Assembly: GCA_001310555.1 (NCBI GenBank)
Contig: BAXO01000035.1
Location: 1 to 51,029, forward strand
From: Bacillus sp. JCM 19058
GTDB taxonomy: Bacteria > Bacillota > Bacilli > Bacillales_H > Bacillaceae_D
DNA: 51,029 bases
Direction: 5' to 3'
Part shown: piece by piece, positions 13,328 through 50,645 of the stretch
How the letters are laid out: each line of letters opens with the position of its first letter
Numbering within the stretch: position 1 is the stretch's first letter
Notes under the pieces: generated by a model
Databases searched by the model: none
The model's input: only the letters and a program-made list of their open reading frames with translations
What the model was told of the DNA's origin: nothing
Program-made: the position numbers and the translations under genes

Positions 13328-14088
13328 ATGATCATAAAAAGGAGCCTAATCGCTATAGTGGGAGTACTATGGCTTAGCGCATGTAATTTAACCACCTATG
13401 AAAGCGAAGAACAGTTAGCGTTGTCTCGGGCAGGAATTGAGACGTTAGTTATCGAGCAAGAACAAGGTGACCTTTCGATAGAGGTAAAGCAAGGCCTAGA
13501 CGAAATCGAAGTTGAAGCGGAGCTCTATGCCACCGGAGAAGAAAAGGATGCCACCGAAAGCTTTTTAAAGCAGAACATGATGATCACGCTGGAAAAACAA
13601 GGCGAGGAGGCGAGGTTGCACTCCTCGGTTAAACAATCTGCAAAGCAAGAGCAAGGAGTATTCGGTTAAATATAAGCATTCCTGAGGAAATGGCTGTCAA
13701 GCTGAAGCAAAAAGAGGGCTCGGCTGCAATTGTCGGGGTACAGGCTGGGCTCACGATCGATCACGGAGCAGGATCGCTTTCCTTGTCTGAAGTTTCAGGT
13801 CCGGTTCAAATTACTGACGGCGCTGGAAAGATGACGATCGACTCCGCCCACGGTCCTGTCAATATTCATAATAAATCAGGAGGCATGCTCATAACGAATT
13901 CAAGCGGTGAGGCGACGATCATGACAGGATCGGGAAGTCTTGAAATCGAAAACTATGAAGGGCAGTTGAACGTGAGAGCAGGTTCAGGAGATATAACCGT
14001 TGACGGAGTAGATGGAGACGTTCATTTATTGGAGAGCGGGACAGGAAAGGTTTTAATCGACAATGTGACCGGACAAGTCATCCAATAG
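13328..14088 (+). CDS. Lipoprotein with DUF4097 (LiaG-like) beta-helix repeats, frameshifted
   Basis: About 253 aa. N-terminal signal with lipobox LSAC (Cys19), so it is anchored on the outer face of the membrane. After a linker region (residues 30-110) the protein has regular beta-repeats with the DUF4097 pattern: ITDGAGKMTIDSAHGPVNI, SGSLEIENYEGQL, AGSGDITVDGVDGDV and SGTGKVLIDNVTG. The frame breaks at about 13660 (one or two bases lost around GGTTAAATA), giving a stop after VFG; reading resumes LNISIPEEMAVKL. DUF4097 proteins such as LiaG are linked to cell-envelope stress systems, but no two-component genes lie next to this one. Confidence 0.75.
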
Positions 14089-14108
14089 CATAAGGTTAAC
14101 AGGGGCCT

Positions 14109-14147
14109 AAGCGTAGACGATCAGAGCATGAGTCTACGCTTTTTTTG
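14109..14147 (+). terminator. Rho-independent terminator after the DUF4097 lipoprotein
   Basis: A perfect ten-base-pair stem AAGCGTAGAC / GTCTACGCTT followed by seven T. Confidence 0.9.
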
Positions 14148-14476
14148 GCTTGTCTTGGGCAGTTGCCTCGTTCACTTAGCCCGTGAGTACAAGCTCGCGC
14201 TTCATCATCCTCTTGGCACTATACTTGGTGCAATCATTATCCACCGCATCGAGGCCCAGCGGGAGCTATCGATCAGATTGCGGTATATTTCCACATGTCC
14301 TATGGCAGCTCGTGTTGCCCCCGTCCCTTGCTGTCAAAATTAAAAACAGCGTGATACGGTGCTTGCAATCGGGAAGCCGCGGTTATGCATAAGTCAGCGT
14401 TCTATGGAGTAGGGAGGCAAGCTGGCTCAAAAATTTTACATTCAAAGCCCAATTTTTCAAAATTGAAAATCAATCA
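14148..14476. other. Intergenic stretch, nothing recognised
   Basis: About 330 bp between the terminator and the promoter of the sulfate cluster. Short open frames of 69-71 codons exist on the plus strand but show no start signals or recognisable protein. No repeat or transposase seen. Confidence 0.4.
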
Positions 14477-14505
14477 TTGACAAGGCGAGGAATGATGGAT
14501 AGAAT
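14477..14505 (+). promoter_or_regulatory. Sigma-A promoter of the yezD/sulfate assimilation cluster
   Basis: TTGACA at 14477-14482, a 17-nt spacer and TAGAAT at 14500-14505: a perfect -35 and a five-of-six -10 with ideal spacing. It is the only strong promoter seen at the head of the yezD-cysH-sat-cysP-cysC-cysJ-cysI cluster. Confidence 0.8.
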
Positions 14506-14519
14506 ACTATTAAACTAAT

Positions 14520-14544
14520 AAAACATATCAAATTACAAGGAATT
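14520..14544. promoter_or_regulatory. Possible CymR operator
   Basis: The stretch ends in GGAATT (14539-14544) preceded by an A/T-rich arm, like the 3' end of the B. subtilis CymR consensus, but about five defined positions of the 5' part do not match. It lies just downstream of the expected transcription start, where a repressor would act. Weak evidence; CymR is the cysteine-metabolism repressor in Bacillus. Confidence 0.3.
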
Positions 14545-14591
14545 AGGCTTCCTCAAGTAAAAATCCGTGAAAATGGTGGGGAGGTAGCGCA

Positions 14592-14726
14592 ATGTCCAAG
14601 CAGGAAGAGCTTGACGGTTTATATGGCCAAATAAAGGTGCTGTTAGAAGGTTTGAAGTATGGGACGATTACACTTGTCGTTCAAGATGGAAAAGTGATTC
14701 AATTAGAAAAAAAAGTGAGAAAGTAA
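14592..14726 (+). CDS. yezD: YezD family small protein (DUF2292)
   Basis: 44 aa. ATG at 14592 follows GGGGAGG at ideal spacing. The sequence reads EGLKYGTITLVVQDGKVIQLEKKVRK at its C-terminal side in overlapping pieces (LKYGTITLVV, then QDGKVIQLEK), which is the YezD/DUF2292 pattern (YGSVQIIVHDSKVVQI in B. subtilis). Members of this family are often encoded at the start of sulfate assimilation or sulfur operons; here it is the first gene behind the strong promoter and 205 bp before cysH. Role unknown. The A8 run near its end is in frame. Confidence 0.8.
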   Translation: MSKQEELDGLYGQIKVLLEGLKYGTITLVVQDGKVIQLEKKVRK

Positions 14727-14931
14727 GATTAAAATGAATGGAACGGACCGTCACAACAGTGCGGTCAAGGAGTCGTTGGTTCCAAGGATTTCGATAGCTA
14801 TTGACATGTAAAAAAACAGCCTGCTGACTAGAGCAACTAGAGGCGGCGTTCACCAGATGAACTTTCTGGGAGAGCGGCGTTTTTTTGTGCTTCAATTGTC
14901 GAATGGTGCTGGAGAAGGAGTGGTGAACGGT

Positions 14932-16872: not shown

Positions 16873-17950
16873 ATGCTGACGATTGCTGCCTTCGTGATCG
16901 CATTATTTTTTGCCATGAATATCGGAGCAAGTGGAACAGCTGCCGCGATGGGGCCAGCTTATGGCAGCGGGGCTGTCCCTACAAAACGAATCGCAATGAT
17001 TCTCGTCAGCCTATTTGCCTTTTTAGGTGCTCTTTCTGGTGGAGAGGTTGTTCGTACGATAGGTAACGGAATTATTCCGGCGCAAGTACTGGATGTAGAC
17101 ATCGTCGTCATCGTGCTAACAGCCGCTTGCTTGACACTGTTCACCGCAAATATGATAGGGATTCCGTTATCGACAAGCGAAGTCGTTGTCGGCGCTATTG
17201 TCGGAGCAGGGCTCGCTTTTCAGTCGCTATTTATCGATAAGCTGCTAGTCATTGTTTCCTTTTGGCTAGTCATTCCAGCTGCTTCTTTTCTCATTGCCTT
17301 TTTTTCTCGGGACATGGATTAACCGTGTGGAGAAGCGATGGCCCTCACTACAAGGGCTTGGAAAATGGAAGCGACCGCTTGCCTTGCTTTTAATCATTAG
17401 CGGCTGTTTAGAAGCCTTTGCTGCAGGAATGAATAACGTCGCAAACGCAGTCGGACCGTTAGTCGGCGCAGGACTGATCGATGTGACGTCTGCAGTTTTT
17501 CTCGGAGGTATCTTTGTATCGCTTGGGGCCTTTCTGCTCGGCAGTCGAGTTCTTGAAACGAATGGGAAAAAGATTACGAAGCTTACTTTGCTGCAAGGCA
17601 GTGCCGTTTCGACTACTGGAGGTCTGTTAGTCATTATAGCCTCAATATTCGGTTTGCCGGTTCCATTAACACAAATTACAACCTCTGCTATCGTCGGAAT
17701 TGGGACGGCAAATAATGGCTTTCGCTTATGGCAAAAAGGTATTGTAAAGCGAATTGTGATGGTGTGGGTCGTTTCGCCCGTGATTTCCCTCGTCTTGTCG
17801 TACGGGTTCATCGTATTATTTAGATTGGCGGATTACTATACATTTGTTGTCATTGCAAGCGTCTTTGTCGCGACAATCGGATCCTACAGCTTATATAAAA
17901 CGTCGCGCCAAGAGCAGCGTTCAAATTACGAAGAAGGAGGCGGGATTTAA
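16873..17950 (+). CDS. cysP: Sulfate permease CysP, PiT family (frameshifted at a T7 run)
   Basis: About 358 aa multi-span membrane protein with the two PiT repeats: MNIGASGTAAAMGPAYGSGA in the first and GMNNVANAVGPLVGAGL in the second, each with the conserved N-[NGI]-x-A loop. B. subtilis CysP, a PiT homologue in the cysH operon, transports sulfate rather than phosphate; the context here (between sat and cysC) argues for the same substrate. The frame breaks at the T7 run (about 17299-17305); with T6 it reads IAFFLGTWINRVEKRW. Start at the ATG behind AAGGAGTGAGG. Confidence 0.88.
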
Positions 17951-18769: not shown

Positions 18770-20588
18770 TTGCAACTTCAAGTAAAGAACAGTCCATTTA
18801 ATCAAGAGCAGGTCGAGCTGCTCAATCAGCTTTTGCCTAAATTAACGGAATCACAGCAGATCTGGCTGAGCGGGTACCTTTCTGCTTACTCTGCAACCTC
18901 TCAGGCTGCTTTGAAAGATGCGCCGGGCTCTGCTACTAGCGCTGAAGCAGAAAGCGTTGCATTACAGGAGGTAACAATACTATACGGATCCCAGACAGGG
19001 AACGGGCAGGAATTGGCTACAGGGATGTCACGAGATCTTGAGGAGATGGGACTGAAAGTAACTCTTTCCTCAATGGGTGATTTCAAGCTAAATTCTTTAA
19101 AGAAGCTTCGGCATTTGTTGCTCGTTGTGAGCACCCACGGAGAAGGGGATCCTCCTGACAGCGCGCTGTCATTTTATGAATTCCTTCATGGAAGGAAGGC
19201 ACCGAAATTGGAGAAGCTGCGATATTCAGTTCTTTCCTTAGGGGATAGCTCATATGAATTTTTCTGTGAAACCGGAAAAAGGTTCGATGCCAAGCTGGAG
19301 GAGTTAGGTGCAGAGCGACTCTGTCCGCGTACTGATTGTGATTTGGACTTTGACGAGCCAGCGGCCGAATGGTTTCAGAGCGTGGTAAGCGCGTTGAGCG
19401 AGCATCAAGGTAATCAGCAGGTGCAAGCAGTTACAACTGCTCCGCCTACAACCGACCGTTCCGTCTATTCAAGGACGAACCCTTTTAAGGCTGAGATTTT
19501 TGAAAATTTGAACCTTAATGGTCGCGGCTCAAACAAAGAGACTCGCCACCTTGAGCTATCACTGGACGGATCGAATTTTCAGTTTGAACCGGGTGACAGC
19601 TTAGGGATTTATCCTGAAAACCAGCCTGTTCTAGTGGATGAGCTGATTGACGAAATGGGCTGGAAAGCAGATGAGCTCGTTCCGGTAAATAATCGCGGAG
19701 AAGAGCGGCCATTGCGGGAGGCGCTGCGAAACAATTACGAGATCACCCAATTGACAAAGCCGTTGTTGCAACAGCTCGCATTATTAACCTCACATCAAGG
19801 ACTGCAACAGCTGCTGAAGCCAGAGGCCGAAAAAGCTCAGGACTTATCTCGATGGACGGGATTTGTTGGATTTAGTGCGGGATTACTCACTCTCGGAGCT
19901 GCCGGCGAGAGAGCTAGTGCCGCTTCTACGGAAAATGCCCGCCCGTCTATACTCGATCGCCAGCAGTTTAAAAGCGAATCCGGATGAGGTTCACCTGACG
20001 ATTGGGGCTGTACGTTATCGTGCACACGGTCGCGAAAGAAACGGCGTCTGCTCGATATTGTGTGCTGAACGGGCGCAGCCTGGCGATACATTGTCTGTTT
20101 ACGTCCAGCGCAATTCGAACTTTAAGCTTCCGTCCGATTCAGAGACACCGATCATTATGGTTGGTCCCGGTACGGGCATTGCACCTTTCAGGTCCTTCCT
20201 TGAAGAAAGAGAGGAGGTAGGAGCTGAAGGGAAGTCGTGGTTATTTTTCGGTGATCAGCATTTTGTGACAGACTTCCTTTACCAGGTAGAATGGCAACGC
20301 TGGCTTAAGGAAGGTGTGCTAACGCGTATGGATGTTGCTTTTTCTCGTGATACAGCAGAGAAGGTGTACGTTCAGCACCGCATGCTGGAGAAAAGTCAGG
20401 AGCTCTATCGATGGTTAGAAGCTGGAGCTTATCTATACGTTTGTGGGGATGAAAAGCACATGGCTACTGACGTGCACACGACTCTGGCAACAATTCTTGA
20501 ACGGGAAGGCGGCATGAGCCAAGAGGAAGCGAGTACCTATTTAACCGAAATGCAAAGGCAGAAACGATATCAGCGTGATGTATACTGA
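18770..20588 (+). CDS. cysJ: Sulfite reductase flavoprotein subunit CysJ (frameshifted)
   Basis: 605 aa after repair, the size of B. subtilis CysJ. TTG start behind GTGAGGT. Domains in order: short N-terminal helical part; flavodoxin/FMN domain with LYGSQTGNGQELATGM and STHGEGDPPDSALSF; FAD-binding domain with RLYSIASSL; NADPH domain with GPGTGIAPFRSFLEE, FFGDQHF and YVCGDEKHMA, ending KRYQRDVY. The frame breaks just before 19850, where one extra T in ACTTATC separates AEKAQD from YLDGRDLLDLV. It passes electrons from NADPH to CysI, encoded 20 bp downstream. Confidence 0.93.
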
Positions 20589-22823: not shown

Positions 22824-24082
22824 ATGAGGAAAATTGTAACTTGGATACTGTTGTTTAGTGCGAGTGTATTCACTCTCGGAGGATGTCAAGCGTTAACAAG
22901 TGGGGAGGAGGAAGAGATTACGCTCACGTTATGGTACTGGAACCGTAGTCTCGACGATCAGATTTTAAAAGAGGTAGAGGAGGCGTTTCCCAATATTAGA
23001 TTGGATGCACAAAAAATAGGCGGGGATGAATATAAAACAAAGCTGCAAACAGCATTGATTGCTGGAACCGGTGGTCCAGATATTATTGCGATGAATGATT
23101 GGGTCTATGAGTTTCTTCCGTATGATGAGGAATTTGTCAATTTGAATGACTACGGTGCAAAAGAGATCGAAAATGATTTTCTTGATTGGAAATGGGAGCT
23201 CGCCCAGAATCCGGAATCCGGGGCGCTGATTGCTCTGCCGATCGATACCGGACCTACGGCCTTGTTTTACCGTGCTGATTTGTTTGAGGCAGCTGGTTTG
23301 CCAAGTGAGCCCGATGAGGTCAGTGAGCAAATCCAGACTTGGGATGACTATATCGCCGCAGGTGAACAAATGTTAGAAGCGACCGGTGTCAAAATGTTTG
23401 ACACGATCAATAGAGTCTATACGCAATATTTGGAACAAAATGCAACCAAGTATTTTGATGAGGACGAACAATATATTGGAACTGGTGGGACGGTTAAGGA
23501 AGCTTGGGATGTGATTTCCGAAATTAGCGAGCGCGATTTAACCGCGCGATTGACAGACGGGCAGGAAAGGAATGCAGCGCTGAATAATGGAGATGTCGCT
23601 TCCTTTGTCGGCGCCGTCTGGGAGTCAAACATCCTTCAAGATTCGCGCCGGATACGGCAGGTGAATGGCGGGTGGCACGGGCGCCAGGAGGGAGCGGAAA
23701 CAATGGCGGCTCCTTTCTCGGCGTATTAAAATCGACTGAGTATAAGGAGGAAGCTGTCGCGGTAGTGAAGTGGCTCATGTCACCTCAAAACCAGTTGGAG
23801 TACTATTTGAACCTTGATTTGTTTCCTTCGATCGTGGAAACGCTTGAGTCAGACGAATTAGCACAGCCCGATCCTTTCTATGGAGAGCAAGTCGTTACGG
23901 ATGTGTTTAGCGAGTCAGCACAAAACGTCCCGAACACATACTATGGTGAATTGTATACGAAATTTCATCGCATTTTTTCTGACGAAATCACAATGATAGA
24001 ACGCGGAAATAAAGATCCGGAGCTTGCCTGGCAGGATGTGCAAAAGAAAATAGAACGCGAGCTATCGCGCCAATCTTACTGA
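22824..24082 (+). CDS. Sugar ABC transporter substrate-binding lipoprotein (frameshifted)
   Basis: About 419 aa. Signal peptide with lipobox LGGC (Cys at about residue 20) after FSASVFTLGGC. The mature part starts EEEITLTLWYWNRSLDDQI, typical of family 1 (MalE/UgpB-like) binding proteins, with AGTGGPDIIAMNDWVY and LPIDTGPTALFYRADLF. The frame breaks at about 23645 (one G lost after GATTCG); the rest runs SAPDTAGEWRVARAPGGSG, includes EEAVAVVKWLMSP and ends at 24080-24082. Strong Shine-Dalgarno (AAAGGAGG). First gene of a three-gene importer with two permeases. Confidence 0.88.
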
Positions 24083-24097
24083 CGGGAGGGAGATCAC

Positions 24098-25034
24098 ATG
24101 CAGGGGCAAACAGAAATAAAAACTGAACAGCAACGAGGAATTGGATTGAAACAGGCATCATTATGGTCAGAAATTTGGAAAAACCGCGTGCTCTATCTGT
24201 TTATTTCTCCTTTTTATTTGCTCTTTTTAGTTTTCGGGCTTTTCCCGATCTTATTCTCCTTCTATTTATCCTTTCATAGCTGGTCAGGGTTAGGGGAAAT
24301 GACGTTTGTCGGCTTAGCTCAATTTCGTTATTTATTGACCGAGCCTGACTTTTGGCAGGCCGTCGGCAATACGTTTGCGATCTGGTTTATTTCAAGTATA
24401 CCGATGCTGTTTTTTTGCCTTAGTGATCGCTTTTATGCTTAATTTGCCGACATTGAAATTACGCGGCACATACCGCACGATGTTTTTTATTACGAATGTC
24501 ACATCAATTGTGGCCGTAGCGATCATATTTGAGACGATTTTCAGCAATCAGTATGGGCTATTAAACTATTTGCTTTCCGTTGTCGGACTTTCGGGCCTCG
24601 ATTGGCTTAATTCGACGTTTCTTGTGAAAGTCGTTATTGCCTCCATGGTTGTGTGGCGGTTTGTCGGCTACAATGCGATTATTTATCTAGCAGGCTTGCA
24701 AAGTATCCCTAAGACGCTGTATGAAGCCGCATTAATAGACGGGGCCAGCAAAACGCAAACCTTTTTCCGCATTACGATTCCTTTACTGCGGCCGGTGATA
24801 TTATTTACGGTCATTATGACAACGATTGGTTCGATGCAGCTATTTACGGAGCCTCAAGTCTTGCTTGGCAACACTGGCGGCGTTGGCGGCGGAGGGATGA
24901 CAATGACGCTTTATATGTATAATGAAGGATTTATCGAAGGACAGTTTGGCTACGCCTCTGCTGTTTCTTGGGTTATGTTTATCATTATCGGCTTATTTTC
25001 ACTCATCAACTGGAAGCTTGTGCAAAAGGCTTAA
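24098..25034 (+). CDS. Sugar ABC transporter permease, MalF/UgpA type (frameshifted)
   Basis: About 311 aa, six membrane spans. The EAA loop, which contacts the ATPase, reads YEAALIDGASKTQTFFRITIPLLRP. The frame breaks at the T7 run at about 24411-24417; with T6 it reads PMLFFALVIAFML. The first span is ISPFYLLFLVFGLFPILFSF. It starts 15 bp after the binding-protein gene. Confidence 0.88.
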
Positions 25035-25058
25035 TTCGGTTTCAAAGGAGGGGATTTC

Positions 25059-25892
25059 ATGTTCGCTGAGAATGGTATGTCAAGCTGTTCACGTATTTTT
25101 TTTGCTCCTGATCGGGGTCGTTATCTCAATTTTTCCTTTTTATTGGTTAGTCGTTATGGCGACCAATACGACAAGTGAGATTTTACGTTTTCCACCGCGG
25201 CTCGTCTTTGGCGGTGAGCTGATTACAAATATTCAGTCTGTTTTAAACAATATCGCTTTTTTTCCAAGCCTTTTTTTAACACTTTGTTTGTCAGTGTCGT
25301 AACGGTGCTTGGCGTTATGTTCTTTTGTTCTCTGGCTGGCTTTACGTTTGCTAAATTTCAATTTCCAGGAAAGGATTTTCTTTTTATTTCGTTGCTTCTA
25401 ACAATGATGATTCCGGCACAGATGAGCTTCGTTCCATCCTTTTTGATTGTTGCCGAGTTTGGCTGGGTTGATTCGTACAAGGCGCTCATTATCCCGAGCC
25501 TTGTGAATGCCTTTGGTATCTTTTGGGTTCGGCAGTTCTGTCAAGCTTCTGTACCGGATGAATTACTCGATGCCGGCCGTTTAGACGGCTGTAATACATT
25601 TAGGCTATATTGGAATGTCGCGTTGCCGACCTTACGACCAGCGTTGACTTTTTTTAGGGATATTCACCTTTATTTCGATTTGGAATGACTACTTATGGCC
25701 GCTCGTCGTCATTAACTCACCCGAAAAATATACGCTGCAGGTCATGCTTTCCCAGCTAAGCGGGTTTATGATACCGACTATGCGATGGTCATGGCCGGCA
25801 CTTTAATGGCAACGCTTCCTTTGATCATTCTGTTTATTATTTTCAGCCGCCAGTTTATGGCCGGTGTTGCCGATGGAGCGGTGAAAGAGTAG
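25059..25892 (+). CDS. Sugar ABC transporter permease, MalG type (four frameshifts)
   Basis: About 277 aa after repair. ATG at 25059 behind AAAGGAGGGG. In the repaired frame it reads [21 protein letters not shown], with breaks at a T8 run (25114-25121), a T7 run (25271-25277), a T7 run (25649-25655) and near 25764. MalG features: [30 protein letters not shown], the EAA-like loop [24 protein letters not shown] and a C-terminal [16 protein letters not shown], the usual end of MalG. No ATPase gene follows, so a shared MsmX-like ATPase is expected, as is common in Bacillus. Confidence 0.85.
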
Positions 25893-36632: not shown

Positions 36633-37980
36633 TTAATTTTGTGATTCAAGTTCTTTTAGGACAATTTCACCGCGTTCTTGCAACCACCTAACAAACTCTG
36701 GCGGTGTCATGTCAGATTCGTAAAAGTCATTCGATACAGAACCATGCCATGGCTCACCTGCAGCTTCAAGGGAATGCTCAATATGGAACCGGTTAGGTGA
36801 TCTTTTTTTGAGGTGTTATGTCGAAAAGTGACTCTATATGAATATTTTGATATGCGGGTTCTTCCTCCCCGAAGACTACATGAATATCTTCATTGACAAG
36901 AGGAGAGGCAATGCCTTTAGCAGAAAAGTTGGTTTGATACTCATCGGATAAAAGAAAGTCAATCACTTGAAAGGACTGTTCAATGGATTCACTAGTATTT
37001 GTAATACCGATGACCTCACCGCTTGAAGTCGGACCAATACCCGGCATATGTTCCCAACTCGGATATGTGACGATATCCCAGTTGAAATGAGCATTTTGAT
37101 AGCTCGATGTCTGATCATAGGACGCATGCATGGCCAGAACACCATCCATAAACACATGCTCCATATCGCCTGGACGCTCCGGATAGTTTCCTAAAATGTT
37201 AAATAATGTGTCCATTAGTTCGAGCGTCATTCCAAAGGCGGGCTCGTCCTGGAAGTGTGGATTTCCATTTTCGTCTTGATGATCCACACCGTGTTGAGTA
37301 AACGCTGAATGAAAGTGAGCGTGTAACCCGTGGTATAGTACACCGTCATGTTCGCGTGAGACTTGGCGGGCTAATTCGGCGACTTCAGCCCATGTCATAT
37401 GGTCTTTAGGATAATCAACGCCGAATAAATCAAAAATATCTTTATTGTAATGGAGGGCGCTCAAACCGCGTGTTAATGGAAGTGCACCCAATATATTCGA
37501 CTCTGGACCAAGGAACTCATTACTACGGCTTCGAAGCTCCTCAACAATATTATCTTCAAGACGAGAGAGCTCAAAGTCCACTGTCTCAAAAACTTTATTT
37601 AAATCATAAGCCAAATCTTTTTGGAATATTGCAGTAGTACTACCAGGACTGCCTGTCACCCAGAGGTCAGGAAGGTTTTGTGAAACAATCAATTCCTCTA
37701 ACTGTTCAGTATTTCCGGGATGAGCCTCAATATGAGTCAACTGAATATGGTCAAAATGATTCTCAACAGGATCTTTAAACCGTTCGTTAAACTCTCCTTC
37801 TGATCCGGGCCATGCTAATGTTAACTCTACATCTTCGGGCTGTTGATGAATGAATTGATCCTCTTCATTTTGTATCTGTAAATCATTGGAATTGTCGGTG
37901 TCCTCCGAACAGGATGCTCCTACTAGCAGAAAAGAAAAAGTAATGGATCCTATCATTATCTTTTTGTAGAATGACAACAT
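36633..37980 (-). CDS. Orphan extracellular solute-binding lipoprotein, family 1 (frameshifted)
   Basis: About 448 aa. Signal peptide ending at the lipobox VGASC (Cys24), then an acidic linker and ELTLAWPGSEGEFNERFKDPVENHF. The middle has the ligand-site pattern LPLTRGLSALHYNKDIFDLFGVDYPKDHMTW. The frame breaks at a T7 run near 36806-36812 (plus strand); with six the C-terminus is PQKRSPNRFHIEHSLEAAG and ends at 36633-36635. It resembles the protein at 49300-50645 more than the one at 22824. No permease or ATPase nearby; the ligand is unknown. Confidence 0.8.
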
Positions 37981-42049: not shown

Positions 42050-42282
42050 TCTTCTATTTAGTAGACCTTTTTAAAAATGCTAATTATAGATATCACCATG
42101 AGATATTATTGATATACCGGCTCCGTATTAGCGTGTATATGATTCAAGATTTGGTTTAATTTGTTCACACCTATAAACTAGGAACTCTTGCTATGACATT
42201 TTAAATAGTTCAGTAGAAGGGGTTTATGAACACTGTGTTTAAAACGACCTCACTTGCACTGTCACAATGGATCATTTAAAGG

Positions 42283-42322
42283 AAAATCCGAAATGGCGAG
42301 AGATGTCTATTTCGGATTTTTT
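42283..42322 (+). terminator. Terminator upstream of the GDPD/ABC operon
   Basis: A perfect 12-bp stem AAAATCCGAAAT / ATTTCGGATTTT followed by TT. It separates the operon from the upstream genes. Confidence 0.75.
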
Positions 42323-42363
42323 GGTCGAAGCGACTGTGTATAAATATAAACAAATTTAATATA

Positions 42364-42402
42364 TTTACACAATATTTGCTCTGTTTTAACACTATATTCG
42401 TA
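42364..42402 (+). promoter_or_regulatory. Putative PhoP box: four hexamers at 11-bp spacing
   Basis: TTTACA (42364), TTTGCT (42375), TTAACA (42386) and TTCGTA (42397) lie exactly 11 bp apart. The Bacillus PhoP consensus is TT(A/C/T)A(C/T)A repeated with about 5-bp gaps; two units match perfectly, one five of six and one four of six. A TATACA -10 candidate is at 42423-42428, putting the array just upstream of the -35 position. This predicts induction of the operon by phosphate starvation. Confidence 0.5.
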
Positions 42403-42456
42403 TCCAAAATGTAACCTAGATATATACAGTTTTGTGTCTACAGAGGAGGGATAACA

Positions 42457-43092
42457 ATACTAACAGCACATTCAGGTAGTGATCAGACTGAAGATAATAG
42501 CTTGGAATTTGTAGAGAAGTTTCTGGAGAGCTCTTGTGATGCGATTGAGGTTGATGTGAGGAGGTCAGATCGAGGCGTTCTCTATTTAAGCCATGATTGG
42601 ACTCCGGAAACAGAGGATGCGGTTACGCTTGAGGAGGTTTTTGTGAGAGCTGCGGACTCGACTGTCAAAGTAAATGTTGACTTAAAGGAAGAGAATTTAG
42701 AGAAGGAGGCCTTTCAGCTAGCGGAGCAATATCAGGTAAAAGACCGAATAATCCTTTCTGGCACAGTCTCTTTAAGCAATTTAACTCAGAAAGAGATCGA
42801 GCAGCACTTGTTTTATAATATAGAGCTGCGTTTCCCTGATCTTTATCAAACACAGCAGTTTGGTGAAAAGGATTTAGCTGAATTGATTGAATTTTGTCAG
42901 CAACATGGGATCACGGTCATCAATGCTCAATATGCTTTTTGTCAGCCTCGTATCATCCAAGCACTAAGAAACCATGGCATTCATTTATCTGCGTGGACTG
43001 TGAATGACAGAAAAGTAATCAAAGAACTTTTTGACCAAGGGATTTATAATGTTACTTCCAAGCGGACGTTACATTATTTGAAAGGGTCTTAG
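42457..43092 (+). CDS. Glycerophosphodiester phosphodiesterase (GDPD), cytoplasmic
   Basis: About 211 aa. Hydrolyses glycerophosphodiesters to glycerol-3-phosphate and an alcohol. GDPD motifs: LTAHSGSDQTEDNSLEF (His plus Glu/Asp-Asn), then AIEVDVRRSDRGVLYLSHD (metal Glu/Asp and second His), KVNVDLKEENL and the C-terminal LSAWTVND. The first standard start codon, TTG at 42502, would remove the HSG motif, so translation must begin earlier; the codon 7 nt after GGAGG is ATA at 42457. No signal peptide, so it acts inside the cell on imported substrate. First gene of a seven-gene operon. Confidence 0.82.
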   Translation: MLTAHSGSDQTEDNSLEFVEKFLESSCDAIEVDVRRSDRGVLYLSHDWTPETEDAVTLEEVFVRAADSTVKVNVDLKEENLEKEAFQLAEQYQVKDRIILSGTVSLSNLTQKEIEQHLFYNIELRFPDLYQTQQFGEKDLAELIEFCQQHGITVINAQYAFCQPRIIQALRNHGIHLSAWTVNDRKVIKELFDQGIYNVTSKRTLHYLKGS

Positions 43093-43106
43093 GAAGTGGT
43101 GTCGCA

Positions 43107-43941
43107 ATGAGATATTTACATCCAAAGCGTCTTTATCACGCTCTTGGTAGAAGAAAATTTACTGAGTTTATTTTGTTATCTGCTTTTCTGTTATTTTTCT
43201 ATGCTCCTTTGTTAAATACTTCAATGCTTGCTTTTGCGGATGTGTATCAAGCACCAGCCGTTATTCCACAGGAGTTTGGCTTTCGCTGGTGGGAGTTTAT
43301 TTTTTTCAAAGAGTTCGTTAATGTCTTCGATTGTTAATTCATTTTTAATCGCAGTGATTACAACGATCCTTTCACTGATTGTCTGTATCCCAGCGGCTTA
43401 TGCTTTATCTCGATATCAATTTAAAGGTCGAAAGTTCATTATGTTCTCCTATCTGTTAACCAATTCTTTCCCAAAGATGGGGCTCTATGTGTCAATGGGC
43501 ATTCTATTCTATAACTATAATCTGATGGGTACATTAACAGGTGTCATCATCGTACATATGATTAATACGATCTTATTTATGGTTTGGTTGCCAATGGGGG
43601 CCTTTCGCAGTATCCATACGCAACAGGAGGATGCAGCTAGGGATGTTGGTGCCGGTCCAATTCGAACATTCATGAAGGTGACGTTACCAATGGCAGTACC
43701 TGGTATAGCTGTTGCCGCGATTTTTACCTTTTTAGGCTCTTTAGAGGAAGCAGAGGGTACGTTGCTGGTTGGCTTCCCAGTCATCAATACGATGGCGACC
43801 GAAATGTATGGGGTCATTTTGGATTATCCGGCGACAGCGGGCTCTGTTTTTGCGCTGCTCTTAGTTGTCCCTAGCATTTTAATTATCTTTATCTTTAGGA
43901 AATACATCAACCCGAGATCAATCTCTAGCGGGTTTAAGTAA
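43107..43941 (+). CDS. ABC transporter permease, PotC/ThiP-like (frameshifted)
   Basis: About 277 aa, six spans. The first span is FILLSAFLLFFYAPLLN. The EAA-type loop AARDVGAGPIRTFMKVTLPMAVPG contacts the ATPase. The frame breaks at the T7 run near 43299-43305; with T6 it reads WWEFIFSKSSLMSSIVNSFL. The closest types are the second permeases of polyamine/iron/2-aminoethylphosphonate-type importers (PotC, PhnV). Starts 14 bp after the GDPD stop. Confidence 0.85.
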
Positions 43942-43960
43942 GGCTGAAAGGAGTGCATGA

Positions 43961-44938
43961 ATGAGTCAGTTACCACTAAAAGTGAAAATAGAAAATATCA
44001 CAAAGAAGTATGAAAACGGAGATGGCATTGAAGATATCAATTTAGGGATCTATGAAGGGGAGCTTGTGACATTGTTAGGCCCTTCCGGATGTGGTAAAAC
44101 AACGATCTTACGTATCTTAGGTGGATTTAACGATGTCAATTCCGGACAGGTTTTTATTGATGGTCAGAGTGTGCTTCATCTTCCACCAGAAAAACGGCCA
44201 ACTGCGATGGTTTTTCAAAGCTATAATTTGTGGCCACATATGACTGTTTATGAAAATCTCGCATTTGGATTAAAGCTGAGAAAGGTAGCGAAATCGCAGA
44301 TCAAACAGGAAATAACAGATATGTTAAAGATGGTGAAGATGGAGGGTGTCGAGAAGAAGTTTCCAAATCAGCTCTCAGGTGGTCAACAACAACGTGTGGC
44401 CATTGCCAGATCGTTATTATTAAAGCCTTCTGTTCTGCTTTTAGATGAACCTTTTTCTGCCTTAGATGCGAAGATTCGCATGCAAATGAGAGAAGAGCTA
44501 AAGAGAATTCAATCCGATTTAAACATCACCGTGGTGTTTGTGACCCATGATCAGGAAGAGGCAATGTCGCTTTCGCACCGGATTGTGGTTATGGACAAGG
44601 GTAAAATTGCGCAGATTGGTTCGCCTACGGAAATCTATGATAATCCAAATTCCAAATACGTGGCTTCGTTTATTGGAGAAATGAATTTTATTGAACAGGA
44701 TCAGGTGCAATTAGCCGTTCGCCCTGAAGATATTAAGGTCTACGCGGATGATAAGGGACAATACAAAGGAAAAATTAGTAGTATCATGATGCTTGGTCAC
44801 TTTGCGAGTGTTCAAATTACGTATAACGATACGTTCGTTAAGGCATTTGTGTCGCGAAGGAGTTCATATGATTTGTCGGAGGATATGACTGTGTCATTTG
44901 ATTTGGCAAACTATAAAAACTATACCGGAGGAGCTTAA
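43961..44938 (+). CDS. ABC transporter ATPase, PotA/UgpC-like
   Basis: 325 aa, intact. Walker A LLGPSGCGKTTILRILGG, Q-loop MVFQSYNLWPHMTVYENL, signature LSGGQQQRVAIARSLLLKP, Walker B VLLLDEPFSALDAKIR and switch His in VTHDQEEAMSL. The C-terminal TOBE domain (from about residue 245) starts LAVRPEDIKVYADDKG. Typical of ATPases that serve polyamine, iron, phosphonate or glycerol-phosphate importers. The binding-protein gene begins 4 bp later, so expression is tightly coupled. Confidence 0.93.
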   Translation: MSQLPLKVKIENITKKYENGDGIEDINLGIYEGELVTLLGPSGCGKTTILRILGGFNDVNSGQVFIDGQSVLHLPPEKRPTAMVFQSYNLWPHMTVYENLAFGLKLRKVAKSQIKQEITDMLKMVKMEGVEKKFPNQLSGGQQQRVAIARSLLLKPSVLLLDEPFSALDAKIRMQMREELKRIQSDLNITVVFVTHDQEEAMSLSHRIVVMDKGKIAQIGSPTEIYDNPNSKYVASFIGEMNFIEQDQVQLAVRPEDIKVYADDKGQYKGKISSIMMLGHFASVQITYNDTFVKAFVSRRSSYDLSEDMTVSFDLANYKNYTGGA

Positions 44939-44942
44939 GAGG

Positions 44943-46088
44943 ATGAAAACTATCAAACGTGTATCACCAATGATTGTAGCAGGTGTCTTGTTAGCAGGTT
45001 GTGGACCAAGTACGGGTGCAGTTGGTGATAAAGAAGTTGTCACTTTATGGTCTTCTGGTTCGGATAATGTTAGGAATACGTATGAGATCTTAGCAAGCAC
45101 ATTTAATGAAAGTGAGTATGGAGAAGATTATCAGCTGAATGTTGAGTTTATTTCTTCCGGCTCTGGGGCACAAAGCTTGATGGATCGGACCATTGCTGCG
45201 AGTAAATCAGGACAAACAGATACAAACTTTGACATTGTCGAATTATCTGACTCAGATCTTGATGCATACCTTTCAGAAGGTGGAGAAGACTTCTTTGAAG
45301 AAATTGACTTCTCAAAAATACCTAATTATGAAAATGTCTTAGCAGAAACATCAATTGGACAAGACGTCCTTTTTCCCTATCGTGGGACAACGGTTGTCCT
45401 TGCGTATAATTCAGATGCCGTACCTAATCCGCCCAAGACTGCTGAAGAATTAAATCAATGGATTGTTGATAATCCGGGGAGATTTGCCTATAACACACCA
45501 GGCTCAGGTGGCGCTGGTTCATCCTTTGTGGTCACTAGTGTTTATAATCACTTGCCAGAAGAAGCGTTAACCTCCTCTGATGAAAAATGGAAGGATGAAT
45601 GGCAAGCTGGATTTGATACATTAACTGACTTACATCCCTATTTATATCAATCTGGTGGCAGCACCGTTTACCCGAATAAAAACCAAGGGACATTAGATTT
45701 GTTAGCGAATCTTTCAATTGATATGACACCAGCATGGGTTGACCAGATTGTTGAGCAAAAGAATTCCTCCATTCTCCCAGAATCGATTGAAATTGTTCAG
45801 ATTGATCCAGGTTTTACAGGTAATCTAGCAGCCTTATCGATTCCTAGCATTGGTTCAAACAGTGAGGGAGCACATGCTGTCTTTGATTTTATGGTTTCAG
45901 AAGAAGCGCAAACGATCCTATTAGATGAAATGGGTGCATTCCCTGTTGTTGATACTAGTAATATGAATTCAGATAACGCAGACATGATTTCAAGCTTTGA
46001 TGTGAGTACATTTAGGACATCTAGTTTAGGTACATTATCAACAGATATTGTTGAAAAGTGGGATAACGAAATTGCTCCACTAAACTAA
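44943..46088 (+). CDS. ABC transporter substrate-binding lipoprotein, ThiB/PhnS-like (class 2)
   Basis: 381 aa, intact. Start at the ATG at 44943 (MKTIKRVSPMIVAG) behind GGAGGAG; lipobox LLAGC (Cys at about residue 20). The mature part begins VVTLWSSGSDNVRNTYEIL. The hinge region and the ligand pocket features FDIVELSDSDLDAYL, GTTVVLAYNSDAV and SGGAGSSFVVTSVYNHL resemble iron/thiamine/2-aminoethylphosphonate binding proteins. The ligand cannot be read, but Gly/Ser-rich loops such as SGGAGSS and SSGSGA often bind phosphoryl groups. The operon partners suggest a phosphodiester or phospho-polyol. Confidence 0.88.
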   Translation: MKTIKRVSPMIVAGVLLAGCGPSTGAVGDKEVVTLWSSGSDNVRNTYEILASTFNESEYGEDYQLNVEFISSGSGAQSLMDRTIAASKSGQTDTNFDIVELSDSDLDAYLSEGGEDFFEEIDFSKIPNYENVLAETSIGQDVLFPYRGTTVVLAYNSDAVPNPPKTAEELNQWIVDNPGRFAYNTPGSGGAGSSFVVTSVYNHLPEEALTSSDEKWKDEWQAGFDTLTDLHPYLYQSGGSTVYPNKNQGTLDLLANLSIDMTPAWVDQIVEQKNSSILPESIEIVQIDPGFTGNLAALSIPSIGSNSEGAHAVFDFMVSEEAQTILLDEMGAFPVVDTSNMNSDNADMISSFDVSTFRTSSLGTLSTDIVEKWDNEIAPLN

Positions 46089-46110
46089 GCATACATGTTG
46101 AAAGGAAGCT

Positions 46111-46954
46111 ATGATGTCAAAAAAATTAATACCTTATTTGCTTATACTCCCATCCTTAGCTATTGTTGTGTTCTTTGTTATCTATCCGATCATTAATTCG
46201 ATTATGAGAAGCTTTCAACATCCTGATACAGGCAGCTTTACACTAGAGAATTACGGATTTTTTATGACAGCACCAATGCAGCTAGAGAACATTTTTTTAT
46301 ACAATATTCGTTTCATTTGCGACCGTTGTGCTCACTATCATTATTGCGTATCCATTGTCTATTTATTTACGCTTTAGTACTTCAAAGATTAGTAAGTGGA
46401 TGTTTCAATTAAATATGATTCCTTATTTTGTGCCAGGCATGGTGGCGATTTATGCGGTGATGTTAATTATTAATGATGCTGGTGTGATCAACCGCTTAAG
46501 TCAAATGATTGGGCTAGATATCAGACCTGCTTTACTCTATAACTATCGCGGCATTATTTTAATGAACGTCTGGTTTAATATTCCTTTTGTAACGTTAATA
46601 GTAAGCGCGGCGCTTTCAGGGGTAAAAGAATCAATCATTGAGAGTGCAAAGGATATTGGTGCGAAGAAATTTACAATCTTTTATAAGATTATCTTGCCGT
46701 TAACCTATAAGGATGCGATGATTGCGCTAACCTTTGTCTTTATGGCTAATGTTGGCGCGTTTACGACGCCTTTCCTAGTTGGTGGCAATTCACCGAAGAT
46801 GTTAGGTATTGTCTTGTTCGACCAATTTAACAGTTATATGCAATATGAGCGCGCGGCCGCGTTGTCTGTTATCATGTTTGTGATCTGTGCGTTCTCAGCC
46901 CTTGTCTACATCTATACGAACTTAAGAGAAAGCCAATGGGAGGAAAGAAGATGA
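46111..46954 (+). CDS. ABC transporter permease, PotB/PhnU-like (frameshifted)
   Basis: About 280 aa. First span LIPYLLILPSLAIVVFFVIYP. EAA loop: SAKDIGAKKFTIFYKIILPLTYKD. The frame breaks at the T7 run near 46291-46297; with T6 it reads NIFYTIFVSFATVVLTIIIAYP. Its stop overlaps the next start by four bases (ATGA). It is the partner of the permease at 43107. Confidence 0.85.
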
Positions 46955-47400
46955 AACAAATCCTAGAAAAAAGCTATCTGCTTACACCTGCGGATCATCA
47001 GCGCCATTTAGAGATTCCCTTTCACCTAGATCAACAATATGAGAACATGTATCTTCATTTTTCTTATTCTCCTAAATTGGTGGAGGAAAAACGGGCATTA
47101 ATCTTGATCCAAGAGCATTTAGAGAAAGTGATTCCTGAAGAACTAATGGGAGTCTGGGGGGATGCAACGCGCTATCTGCCACTAGAAAATTTTATCACCC
47201 TTTCTCTGGATGATAACCAACAGTATGTTGGTGCCCGTCATTATAAAGATACGACACAGGACATCGTAATTTCTGAGAATGGTTCGACAAAAGGCTTTTT
47301 GAAGGTTCCAGTAGCTCAGGGAGAATGGTGTATCAGAATGAACATGCATTGTTTGCAATCTGAGGAAGTGCGCCTTCATGTGAAGGTTTCAGTTGATTAG
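46951..47400 (+). CDS. Unknown protein coupled to the PHP hydrolase
   Basis: 149 aa, start ATG 46951 overlapping the permease stop. No signal peptide or membrane segment. Predicted mainly beta: MYLHFSYSPKL, KGFLKVPVAQGEW, CIRMNMHCLQSEEVRLHVKVSVD. A beta-sandwich domain of this size with an ending on a strand is often found N-terminal to PHP domains of the CehA/McbA type; here the two would be separate proteins encoded 17 bp apart. I do not recognise a named family. Likely partner or regulatory subunit of the PHP enzyme. Confidence 0.6.
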   Translation: MKQILEKSYLLTPADHQRHLEIPFHLDQQYENMYLHFSYSPKLVEEKRALILIQEHLEKVIPEELMGVWGDATRYLPLENFITLSLDDNQQYVGARHYKDTTQDIVISENGSTKGFLKVPVAQGEWCIRMNMHCLQSEEVRLHVKVSVD

Positions 47401-47417
47401 AAGAGGGGGTCGAGCAG

Positions 47418-48390
47418 ATGAATTATATTGCAGTAGAGCTTCATTCTCATACGAACCACAGTGACGGACAATTTACAGTAGACGAGCTGATTGAACATAC
47501 GGTGCAATATGGTTATGATGCCATTGCCCTCACGGATCATAACACGGTTTCCGGTCATGAAGAAATCAAGGAAAAAGGGCTTCAAGAGAAAATTACCGTC
47601 ATAGAAGGATTGGAATGGACAACCTTTTATGGACATATGCTTGTATTAAATGCTGGTAGGATCGTTGACTGGCGAACAGCTAATCCTGATAATATTGATG
47701 AGCATCTTGTCGCAATCAAAAAAAGAAAACGGCATTATCGGAGTCGCTCATCCAAAGGTGCTCGGAAGTCCAATTTGTACAGGATGCCGTTGGGAATTTA
47801 ATGTGACGAACTGGGAGCATGTCAGTTTTATCGAAATCTGGAACCGCATGAAGCCAGATGAGAAATTTCAAAGTGAGGAAGCATACGACTTCTGGCGTGA
47901 ACTGCTAAAGCAAGGCCATCAGATCGCCCCAAGTTCCGGCAAGGATTGGCACTCCTTAGAGAAGGAAGATGAAAATACAGCAGTCACGTATGTTGGTTTA
48001 GAAAAGGATACAGAGATTGAAAGCTCAACGATTGCAGAAGCGATCGAAAAAGGCAGAATATATGTCACACTAGGTCCGAGGATTGATGTTAGTCTAACAG
48101 TTGATGGAGAGATCTTTCACCTAGGAGAAACTGCCCGAAAAGGCTCAGGAATGCTACAGCTTGAGGTTTTCAAACCCTCTATTCCAACACTTGAGACATT
48201 CTCATTTATCCCAAGATCTTACCGCATTCTCCAATCGGAAGAGGTTATCTATGAGCTAGATGTCACAGAAGAAGTAATCAATCTACCAGTAGAATTAGAA
48301 GCTGGATATATTAGGGTAGAGCTGATTGGTGATGCAAAAGGTAAAGCGGATCAGCGTTTAACGATTACGAGTCCGATTTATGTGGATTGA
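47418..48390 (+). CDS. PHP-domain metallohydrolase, CehA/McbA type (frameshifted)
   Basis: About 323 aa after repair of an A7 run (47719-47725; with A6 it reads AIKKENGIIGVAHPKVLGS). Metal-site motifs of the PHP fold: ELHSHTNHSDGQF (HxH), ALTDHNTVSGHEE, IEGLEWTTFYGHML, GVAHP and SSGKDWHSLE. The C-terminal 100 residues form a beta domain with SLTVDGEIFHLGETA. PHP phosphoesterases of this group hydrolyse small phosphoesters or carbamates; with GDPD and an importer in the same operon, a phosphoester is the likely substrate. Last gene of the operon; a terminator follows. Confidence 0.82.
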
Positions 48391-48439
48391 TGCAAAATGG
48401 TATGGGCAAGCTTTAAGATAAAATTTAATAAAGCTTAAC

Positions 48440-48481
48440 AAAAGCAGGGGAATTGTCTTTAGAAGCGATTCTCCTGCTTTT
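48440..48481 (+). terminator. Terminator of the GDPD/ABC/PHP operon
   Basis: AAAAGCAGGGGAAT pairs with ATTCTCCTGCTTTT (one G-U pair) around a 14-nt loop. The T run is part of the second arm. Confidence 0.75.
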
Positions 48482-49299
48482 GCCAACAGAATTAGTTTTT
48501 AATACATACGCGTAAGTATCCGTTTATTTTTTTTCGTTAATAAGAACTCCCACTTAACATTTTATCTACAAGAAAAACTAGAAAGAGAGAGAACACCTGC
48601 AGATAAAAGAGATGATTCAACATGAAGTAATGGTATTTATGGCTATGAAGGGTCTCTATTTATTGGAAGTAGCTTCGCCATGTTTTTGAAAACGGGGAGC
48701 GGAAGGCGTTGCTTTTGTGCATACTTGCCACGAGGGCGGGGCTGGCTACATGACAACAGGCTATGCCTTCCAAAATCAATCGCTTGCAGTCGCCACCAGC
48801 AGTTGTTTTTTTTTTCGTTAATCCCAAGATGACATAAAAACTCTTTAGAATAAACCTCACTATTGTACATTTAAATTTTCTTTGAAGAAAGACACAAACT
48901 TCAGGGGTATGGGTTATACGTTACTTAACATTTACTGAAAACTCCTAGAGGAATTTACTAGAAAGTATCGAACGTATTGATAAAATGAATGATAAATAGA
49001 ATTTTACTTCTCTATAAGTGTATGTTCAAAAAGGAGTATAAAAAGAGCGGAGAGCGTCTTTCCTGTACGTAACAGTTCGAGAATGTGATAATCAGTGAGG
49101 GAGAAAGAACTGCTGCTGATTTTAAGCTTCACTTTTTGGGGAGCCTTACTAGTATCGCCATCTAAGGCTGTTAGAGAATAATGGAATAGCCAATCTATGA
49201 AGAGTATAAAGATAGTAAGAGACAGGTAATTAACTTCATTTTCAAGTTAGTCTTGAAATGGATTGGAAAAATGAAAAACCATGTGAAAGGGGTTATACA
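48482..49299. other. Gene-poor stretch with a GC-rich island
   Basis: About 820 bp of AT-rich DNA with one clearly GC-richer island at about 48660-48815. In it GGAAGGC (48701-48707) is the inverse of GCCTTCC (48765-48771), with GTTG/CAAC inside, and a T10 run follows at about 48806-48815. Open frames of 66-75 codons exist on the minus strand through the island, but without start signals. It could be a small RNA gene, a dispersed repeat or a gene remnant. Confidence 0.4.
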
Positions 49300-50645
49300 T
49301 TGAAAAAGAAACTCTTTGTATGTATAGGTATGTGGGTATTGGCTGGGAGTTTGGTAGCTTGCTCATCAGAGGAAATGGAAGGTGGCGGCAGTGGAACTGG
49401 TGGAAATGATGAAGCTGAGGTTGGAAAAGAACCTGCTACCGTTGTGATGGGTTTTCCTCAGGATGAAGGGTATTTTGATGAGCATTTTCGGGAGCATATT
49501 GAAGAAGCGCTTCCTCATATTACAGTTGAACATGTCATATCCGATACATGGGATTATGACCGATTAGAAGAACAGGTCGCGCAAGGCTTTACACCAGATA
49601 TTTTATGGGTGAGCCTGAATCATCAAATTCCGAGACTGATTGATTTCGACCTAACCTATGATTTGACCGACATGATTGAAGCAAGTGATAGTATTGATTT
49701 AAATGAATTTCGAGAAAATACAATCGAAGGCGCTAGTATTCATAGTGAGATGGTGAATTAAATGTTCTACCGCTGCACACAGGTGCCTATACATTGGTTT
49801 ACAACAAGGATATTTTTGATCTGTTTGGAGAGCCTTATCCAACAGATGGTATGACCTATGAGGAAATCTTAGAGATCGCTGGCCGTTTGACAGATCAGAA
49901 GGTGGTAATGTCTATCGCGGTCTAGACTTGGGCTGGCACATACGAATTTATTTGAATTTGATTTTGAATTTGTTGATGAAGATCTTGTTCCACAATATAC
50001 AATTGATCCACAGTTTCGAATTGGTTTTGAATTATTAGAAGAATATTTGAATATCCCAGGGATTTTCGATGGGATTGATGGAGATACATTGCATTCGAAT
50101 GAACATCATTTTTTTTAGAGGAGCGAAATGTGGCTATGCAGATCAACTACAATTTAATCCCACGTTTAGCGGAAATGGGTGATGAAATTGGAATGGATTG
50201 GGATACGGTTACATTTCCGAAGCTTAGTGAGGATTCGGAATTGCTCTATCCTATGGATCATTCTCCACGATTGGCGATTACCAGTGTAGCAGAAGATAAA
50301 GAGGCTGCTTTTGAAGTCATTGAATATTTGTTGAGTCCAGAGTACCAAGCCTATATGGCAAGTAGAGGAATTGTTCCGGCTATCGAGCATCCAGATGTTA
50401 TTGCTGAATATGGCTCAACCTTTGACGGATTGGAAGACAAAAATATTGAAATTGCTATCTTTGAACCAAAGCATGCAATTGGACCGACGAATATGTCGCC
50501 GGTAACGGCTGGTCTCAATGATATTATGATTGAAACGATTAATGAGTTTGTTCATGAAGGGAAGGATATCAACTCTGTCCTTCGAGAAGCAGATGAAAAA
50601 GCGATAACGTCTATCGAGGAAAATAAAGTAAGGTTGAATTGGTAA
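49300..50645 (+). CDS. Orphan extracellular solute-binding lipoprotein, family 1 (four frameshifts)
   Basis: About 449 aa after repair. TTG start at 49300 behind AAAGGGG; lipobox LVAC (Cys about 20) then a Gly/Ser/Glu linker. VVMGFPQDEGYFDEHFREHIEE and the ligand-domain VLPLHTGAYTLVYNKDIFDLFGEPYPTDGMTYEEI parallel the protein at 36633-37980. Breaks near 49757, 49900, 49930 and at the T8 run at 50109-50116; the last part (from about 50120) includes EVIEYLLSPEYQAYMASRGI. No permease genes seen in the window; a GH43 glycosidase gene follows, so an arabinan/xylan-type oligosaccharide is a reasonable ligand guess. Confidence 0.8.

Follow-up and report, generated by a model that had tools for sequence, protein, structure and literature searches.

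We analysed a 51,029-nucleotide stretch of DNA from Bacillus sp. JCM 19058 (contig BAXO01000035.1), referred to here in its full length as the window, with attention to an operon that encodes an ABC importer together with two phosphoesterase-family hydrolases, one of the GDPD family and one of the PHP family. The operon extends from 42457 to 48390 and consists of seven genes, all on the + strand, with intergenic gaps of 4–22 bp or a short overlap, in agreement with the tight packing described in an initial annotation made from the sequence. Its genes follow in the order GDPD, permease 1, ATPase, binding lipoprotein, permease 2, beta protein and PHP hydrolase, with a stem-loop on each side:

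42281–42322, + strand: terminator-like stem-loop with a T run, 5' of the operon (folding energy −17.3 kcal/mol, z −2.18; 4 of 200 shuffled sequences fold as stably)
42457–43092, + strand: variant GDPD-family protein of the HSG / NxDxK type (PF03009 at 42.4 bits, gathering score 23.6; an intact relative aligns from 42457)
43107–43941, + strand: ABC permease 1, PotC/ModB-like (frame switch near 43313; tblastn pieces with 78% and 70% identity to the L001 permease; PF00528 on the second piece)
43961–44938, + strand: ABC ATPase, PotA/PhnT2-like (PF00005; TIGR03265 at 366.5 bits, under the cut-off of 457.7)
44943–46088, + strand: substrate-binding lipoprotein (lipobox LLAGCG, by eye; PF13416/PF01547; NF008633 at 102.7 bits, under the cut-off of 203; AF2 model with pLDDT 84.8)
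46111–46954, + strand: ABC permease 2, PotB/PotH-like (frame switch at 46293–46298; tblastn pieces with 71% and 72% identity to the L001 permease; PF00528 on the second piece)
46951–47400, + strand: beta protein, the N-terminal domain of the PHP enzyme encoded as a separate gene (profile match to the N-termini of the fused PHP proteins L051, L031 and L058; AF2 model a beta-sandwich with pLDDT 97.6)
47418–48390, + strand: CehA/McbA-type PHP hydrolase (frame switch at 47719–47723; the two pieces score 91.4 and 138.4 bits with NF038032, whose cut-off is 80)
48439–48482, + strand: strong terminator-like stem-loop, 3' of the operon (folding energy −26.8 kcal/mol, z −5.04; 0 of 200 shuffled sequences fold as stably)

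Family matches support the gene identities given in the initial annotation (a GDPD, two BPD_transp_1 permeases, an ABC ATPase, a substrate-binding protein and a CehA/McbA-type PHP enzyme), with the correction that three of the seven genes are frameshifted. Alignment of intact relatives places a single frame switch in each of permease 1, permease 2 and the PHP gene; these split genes were analysed as separate pieces, alongside the intact relatives. The GDPD gene has no ATG, GTG or TTG codon before the first catalytic His, and an ATA at 42457 follows a ribosome-binding site. Stem-loops are present on both sides, in line with the terminators given in the initial annotation; a simple terminator scan did not pick up either one.

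A potential concern with these data is whether the operon is a decaying pseudogene cluster in this strain. The frameshifts in three genes and the lack of a usual start codon in a fourth would be consistent with decay, as would the apparent natural decay of a relative, L071, in which the variant GDPD (8721–9476, − strand) carries Gln in place of the first catalytic His, the beta and PHP genes are kept and no importer was found in the 18 kb fetched. We nevertheless consider decay unlikely in the window. The broken genes contain one frame switch each, are otherwise open and are 43–78% identical to their intact relatives. Furthermore, other conserved genes of the window, encoding DNA polymerase IV (3011–4283), CysP (16873–17950) and CysJ (18770–20588), each lie in two frames that match adjacent parts of one profile. 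Because these genes are split in the same way, assembly indels are likelier than decay as the source of the frame switches, an origin that the window alone cannot prove. The window as a whole looks indel-rich; a fourth split-looking pair of open reading frames (39740/40558) gave no profile match.

The gene order was looked for in other genomes by use of a binding-protein profile (A1), with which 53 loci were fetched from one-genome-per-species contigs; none was dropped from the counts that follow. The exact seven-gene order occurs in 13 of the 53 (L003, L005, L008, L010, L012, L013, L034, L036, L039, L042, L043, L048 and L052, with a 616-bp gap before the beta gene in L013), indicating that the arrangement is conserved beyond this strain. 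The GDPD gene lies between permease 2 and the beta gene in six more loci (L020, L022, L025, L027, L029 and L035), and beta and PHP genes with no GDPD gene near the importer are found in seven (L004, L006, L019, L023, L024, L038 and L041). The loci come from Bacillus, Sporolactobacillus, Enterococcus, Trichococcus, Atopococcus, Liquorilactobacillus, Blautia, Oscillibacter, Butyricicoccus, Anaerococcus and other Bacillota, and additionally from one Photobacterium and two Anaerolineaceae bins. Many of the records are metagenome bins, and occurrences are few but spread widely over Bacilli and Clostridia.

In 41 of the 53 loci a GDPD, of whichever type, is encoded no more than 5 kb from the binding-protein gene; the counts at this distance are 34 for a variant GDPD, 39 for PHP, 49 for either enzyme and 31 for both. 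Neither is found within this distance in L011, L049, L050 and L053; the contigs of L049 and L050 start inside the binding-protein gene and leave only the downstream side visible. When the whole fetched stretch is considered, by profile matches, GDPD and PHP occur together in 32 loci, comprising 22 with a variant GDPD and PHP, eight with variant GDPD, canonical GDPD and PHP, and two with a canonical GDPD and PHP. The other combinations are a canonical GDPD alone (four loci), both GDPDs (three), a variant GDPD alone (two), a canonical GDPD with an inositol-monophosphatase-family gene (two), such a gene alone and distant (one), neither enzyme type (two), and PHP with no GDPD at all (seven); L038 falls outside this last class owing to a distant canonical GDPD. 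In L020 a gene of the RlaP family (PF10127) and one for a putative KptA-like RNA 2'-phosphotransferase lie directly 3' of PHP (13383–14795).

The strongest evidence that the soluble proteins of the operon work together comes from gene fusions. The window beta protein has few database relatives and, like the beta proteins of L003, L013 and L029, no Pfam match, so far in keeping with its earlier description as an unknown beta protein. A profile built from 28 locus proteins and the window protein matches the N-terminal 150–170 residues of the larger PHP proteins of L051, L031 and L058 (124, 121 and 109 bits), the remainder of which matches the PHP profile; a fourth large PHP protein tested, that of L047, has no beta-profile match in its N-terminal part. 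These matches identify the beta protein as the N-terminal domain of the PHP enzyme, detached from it as a separate gene. In the model it folds as a beta sandwich of a widespread type, similar to the C-terminal domains of subtilases and to GOLD domains. The counterparts of the beta gene in L018 and L014 match DUF6669 (PF20374; 48.2 and 41.0 bits), for which the window protein gave no match; the beta profile finds L018 (35.8 bits) and misses L014. In addition to the beta-PHP fusions (L031, L051 and L058), a fusion of variant GDPD and beta of 396 amino acids is found in L030. All three are joined in L068, where a protein of 759 amino acids encoded next to importer genes contains GDPD (6–218, 244 bits), beta (231–381, 146 bits) and PHP (427–757, 365 bits); the genome of L068, from the family of Blautia, came from a separate search and is not among the 53 loci. 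Because they are fused pairwise and once all together, GDPD, beta and PHP probably act on one substrate. With the conserved gene order, the fusions bear out the earlier proposal of an importer coupled to two phosphoesterase-family hydrolases, and we consider such a coupled import-and-hydrolysis system to be well favored by the data.

Both window PHP pieces score above the NF038032 (CehA/McbA) cut-off. Nine putative metal ligands (H9, H11, D16, H41, E66, H73, H111, D176 and H178 in L013 numbering) are invariant or nearly so in the PHP alignment A4, which contains 21 of the 38 PHP matches and the two window pieces. All nine are present across these pieces, in the order that is listed for Sb-PDE in PMC11656708. 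As described there, the PHP family includes phosphatases, two diesterases and a cyclic-phosphate enzyme. The model for the cyclic-phosphate dihydrolase, NF041661, gave 31.4 bits with a window piece and 26.2 bits with the intact L013 PHP, against a cut-off of 500.

We also considered a reading in which PHP-beta, like Sb-PDE, is chiefly responsible for cutting the diester, with GDPD an accessory for some substrates. The seven loci that combine the importer with PHP and no GDPD in the fetched stretch (L004, L006, L019, L023, L024, L041 and the Photobacterium locus L047) fit such a role; six of them have a beta match and L047 does not. The co-occurrence of GDPD and PHP in most loci is less readily accommodated, and the joining of all three parts in L068 points to a single substrate processed in two steps. 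Moreover, PMC11656708 describes Sb-PDE as giving no detectable cleavage of its monoester products, which implies that a second enzyme would be missing from the PHP-only loci. We thus regard a main diesterase role for PHP-beta as improbable, and favor a two-enzyme route in which PHP acts after GDPD.

A role for PHP in the second step is also suggested by two Bacillales loci, L001 (Bacillus sp. FJAT-42315) and L002 (Sporolactobacillus inulinus), in which an inositol-monophosphatase-family gene (PF00459 at 222 and 232 bits, respectively) and a canonical GDPD precede the same importer. No PHP or beta match was found in the fetched stretch of either locus. The gene downstream in L001 encodes a GntR/UTRA regulator, and the downstream gene of L002 looks alike by eye. 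The inositol-monophosphatase-family enzyme of these two loci can be read as a non-homologous phosphatase in the role of PHP. Such a replacement implies that PHP would be a monoesterase and points to a polyol phosphate, fitting the earlier suggestion that the first product still carries a phosphoester for the second enzyme. The genome of L001 also encodes a second, paralogous importer, in an operon that includes a LacI-type regulator gene, a beta-PHP fusion and a gene for a 428-amino-acid protein without a Pfam match. An operon of this make-up lies in L058 (3634–6465, − strand; see also L055 and L056), and the start of its 428-amino-acid protein is found again next to the importer in two further genomes of the family.

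We also examined the GDPD of the operon, which scores 28.2 bits against the GDPD equivalog NF006989 (cut-off 264). Operon-type GDPDs carry the motif TAHSG in place of the AHRG or GHRG seen in canonical GDPDs from these loci, and alignment to solved GDPDs places the Ser of HSG at the Arg of 2pz0. In canonical GDPDs the Arg of the HRG motif contacts the phosphate. This position is Ser in 35 of 36 variant sequences (the window protein and 34 of the 35 from the loci) and Ala in one; it is likewise Ala in the variant GDPD of L070, which was found later. Among the best 120 of 844 database matches, a list biased to the variant clade because the clade's own profile was used for the search, the pattern gave Ser in 118 and Thr in one, and the N-x-acid-x-Lys motif has Asp as its acid in all 120. 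The HSG-type motif of the one remaining sequence, P0187, lies beyond the scanned stretch and reads TAHSG in the printed sequence. P0187 carries its variant GDPD behind a signal-like N-terminus and approximately 170 extra N-terminal residues, and is apparently a secreted form.

The GDPD alignment (A3) contains the window protein and 29 of the 38 locus GDPD matches; left out were L021, L030, L037, L043, L048 and L053 (HSG) and L032, L038 and L044:11238 (HRG). H6, E32, D34, H47, D77 and K79, which make up the two His, the E-x-D and the acid-x-Lys, are invariant in its 30 sequences. In a tree of these 30 and 13 canonical GDPDs, all 30 variants lie on one side of a branch with a support of 100/100 and a length of 2.63 changes per column; long-branch warnings were given for the canonical L016 and the variant L039. 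These comparisons indicate that the operon GDPD belongs to a distinct clade with an altered active site and is not a plain UgpQ.

The altered active site raises the question of whether the chemistry is also different, such that the variant GDPD would transfer or cyclise the diester and PHP would open and dephosphorylate the resulting cyclic phosphate, as Elen0235 does. Loss of the HRG Arg, with Ser or occasionally Ala or Thr in its place, alongside retention of His, E/D, His, D and K, is compatible with this scheme, as is the long stem of the clade. Elen0235 is a PHP enzyme that PMC11656708 describes as cutting both ester bonds of a cyclic phosphate, and a GDPD-beta-PHP fusion would serve to hand on an intermediate. 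A profile search of solved structures, however, gave many ordinary GDPDs and no spider-type phospholipase D among 39 matches up to E 1. NF041661 gave at most 31.4 bits on the PHP proteins tested, and the conserved His, Glu, Asp and Lys residues most simply indicate ordinary hydrolysis. The scheme is in our view distinctly unlikely. Its fullest form, a cyclase or transferase GDPD with new chemistry that passes a cyclic phosphate to a PHP dihydrolase within one importer-fed composite enzyme for lipid-headgroup salvage, is a long shot. Hydrolysis by the variant GDPD is thus the preferred first step.

To relate importer and variant GDPD at the level of genomes, two sets of genomes were searched for both. 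The first consisted of 200 genomes from the family of G005 (the Blautia parvula genome of L029), including this seed genome itself, with thresholds of E ≤ 1e-100 for the binding protein (up to nine candidates scored per genome) and E ≤ 1e-25 for the variant GDPD. The binding protein was found in five genomes and the variant GDPD in four, all four of them among the five and G005 one of them. The chance of this overlap is about 8e-8 by a hypergeometric calculation done by hand, or about 3e-6 without the seed genome, in both cases uncorrected for phylogeny. The variant GDPD lies within 3 kb of the binding-protein gene in three of the four genomes; in G661 it lies approximately 13 kb away, in another operon that also encodes a GntR regulator and an ABC importer of the sugar type. 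In two of the four check loci taken from these genomes, L066 and L068, the importer is accompanied by GDPD, beta and PHP. The second set comprised 198 genomes from the order to which G003 belongs; five had the variant GDPD, and two of these, G003 and G004, had the binding protein; this set gave no independent support, because G003 and G004 are the genomes of loci already included.

Variant GDPDs are also found in other transport contexts, in L072 and L073, which together with the decayed L071 come from the other three genomes with a variant GDPD in the second set. In L073, a variant GDPD gene that is split in two frames follows ugpA-, ugpE-, ugpB- and ugpC-like genes and a canonical GDPD gene, with model scores of 140, 160, 212 (211.9), 469 and 138 bits, respectively, of which UgpC alone is above its cut-off. 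The variant GDPD of L072 has a canonical GDPD and an ABC operon of the amino-acid type as neighbours. Such an operon, containing a fusion of binding protein and permease, stands beside the variant GDPD in both L072 (7043–9584, − strand) and L073 (8474–11646).

The binding protein itself gives less information about the ligand. Its nearest NCBIfam model is NF008633, which we take to be of the YnjB type. Its matches up to E 0.01 are four (NF008633, sfuA, PhnS and ptsS_2), and UgpB (NF008211) is not among them, consistent with the earlier statement that the binding-protein class differs from that of ugp. Profile scores are weak for the ThiB type (21.3 bits) and the PhnS type (19.1 bits for the PhnS equivalog NF011620, cut-off 310). 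Structural comparison of the model left a tie among maltose-, dinucleotide-, putrescine-, PhnS- and PotD/PotF-type proteins, with 4r6y (STM0429), presumably PhnS, in the top Foldseek row. Because the fold ties several types of binding protein, the earlier label of ThiB/PhnS-type holds as a fold-level label only. Three more sugar-type binding-protein genes were seen by eye in the window, at 22824–25688, 36793–37980 and 49258–50645; two of them are frame-split, and the one at 49258 is directly downstream of the operon. That the importer ligand is phosphate-free (a polyamine, sugar, iron chelate or carbamate), with the hydrolases acting elsewhere or on a carbamate, would suit the spermidine-, iron- and maltose-binding proteins among the best fold matches and the description of CehA and McbA as carbamate hydrolases in PMC8292978, but is very unlikely in view of the GDPD of either type within 5 kb in 41 of the 53 loci, the inositol-monophosphatase-family gene in two loci and the variant GDPD in a ugp context in L073.

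Taken together, the data lead us to propose that the operon serves to take up and dismantle a phosphodiester. Uptake would be by an ABC importer that works with a lipoprotein and belongs to the PotD/PhnS fold class. Its cargo would be a phosphodiester that is small and soluble; the likeliest candidate is a glycerophosphodiester whose alcohol is of the polyol type, probably derived from pieces of membrane lipids. The variant GDPD and the CehA-type PHP metalloenzyme would form a composite hydrolase held together by the beta domain. We infer that it would be cytoplasmic: inspection by eye of GDPD, beta, PHP and the triple fusion showed no signal peptide (no predictor was run), in line with the initial annotation for both enzymes. 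The variant GDPD would cut the diester, and PHP-beta would then dephosphorylate the monoester, to give the free alcohol or alcohols and inorganic phosphate; a physical complex in this strain and this order of cuts are likewise presumed. We assign a probability of roughly 60% to this proposal as a whole. The assignment of the substrate as a glycerophosphodiester with a polyol headgroup, drawn by analogy from the ugp context, the GDPD and the inositol-monophosphatase-family gene, is tentative.

Several observations weigh against this proposal. The seven PHP-only loci described above have no GDPD in the fetched stretch, and 14 of the 53 loci have no PHP. In the variant GDPDs, the Arg beside the catalytic His of canonical GDPDs is replaced. 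The fold of the binding protein, as modelled, does not point specifically to a phosphorylated ligand. Since CehA and McbA hydrolyse carbamate esters, as described in PMC8292978, the PHP family name is no proof of phosphoester chemistry. Three of the five genomes with a variant GDPD in the second set have no importer match. Among the check loci of the first set, L067 has only a canonical GDPD, its contig ending 0.9 kb past permease 2, and L069 has the importer alone, the variant GDPD of its genome being approximately 13 kb off by a sugar-type ABC operon. Finally, a Pho-box-like direct repeat was not found at 42332–42460 by an exact pattern.

The proposal gives a testable role to the HSG-type GDPD clade, to the possibly DUF6669-related beta domain, to a branch of CehA-type PHP enzymes and to an importer family, and the natural three-domain fusion is a ready construct for assay and structure. 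Gut species would presumably meet headgroup diesters from the diet and from host lipids. No description of this operon was found among the open-licence PMC papers listed by the literature searches, as judged by titles and the starts of abstracts.

The operon can be compared with several known systems. GpxB, a binding protein for glycerol-1/3-phosphate, is described in PMC12718374 as belonging to a PhnT-family importer of glycerol phosphate, and is likened here by description rather than by sequence; the word 'PHP' occurs nowhere in the main text of that paper. The 2-aminoethylphosphonate importers PhnSTUV and PhnT2-PhnU2 share the fold class of the binding protein, and the window ATPase is related to them through its TIGR03265 match, whereas the window proteins (the permeases as pieces) are under the cut-offs of the PhnS, PhnT, PhnU and PhnV models listed. 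Sb-PDE, No-PDE and Elen0235, as described in PMC11656708, are PHP enzymes that can cut phosphodiesters and whose metal ligands follow one another as they do here; the likeness to Sb-PDE rests on the ligand list and not on a sequence comparison, and the Elen0235-type model NF041661 is far under its cut-off. With the CehA/McbA family (NF038032) the window PHP shares the family model and the nine conserved metal ligands, but those enzymes cut carbamates, while the window has the N-terminal domain as a separate gene in the context of an importer and a GDPD. The ugpAECB-ugpQ system likewise combines ABC importer genes with an intracellular GDPD, and a variant GDPD stands beside a ugp-like operon in L073. 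It differs in its UgpB-type (CUT1) binding protein, a model that the window protein does not match, and in its GDPD, the window GDPD falling in the variant clade; to our knowledge, beta and PHP proteins are no part of ugp. Compared with these systems, we rate the association of an importer with an intracellular GDPD as of a known kind, and the composite enzyme as new.

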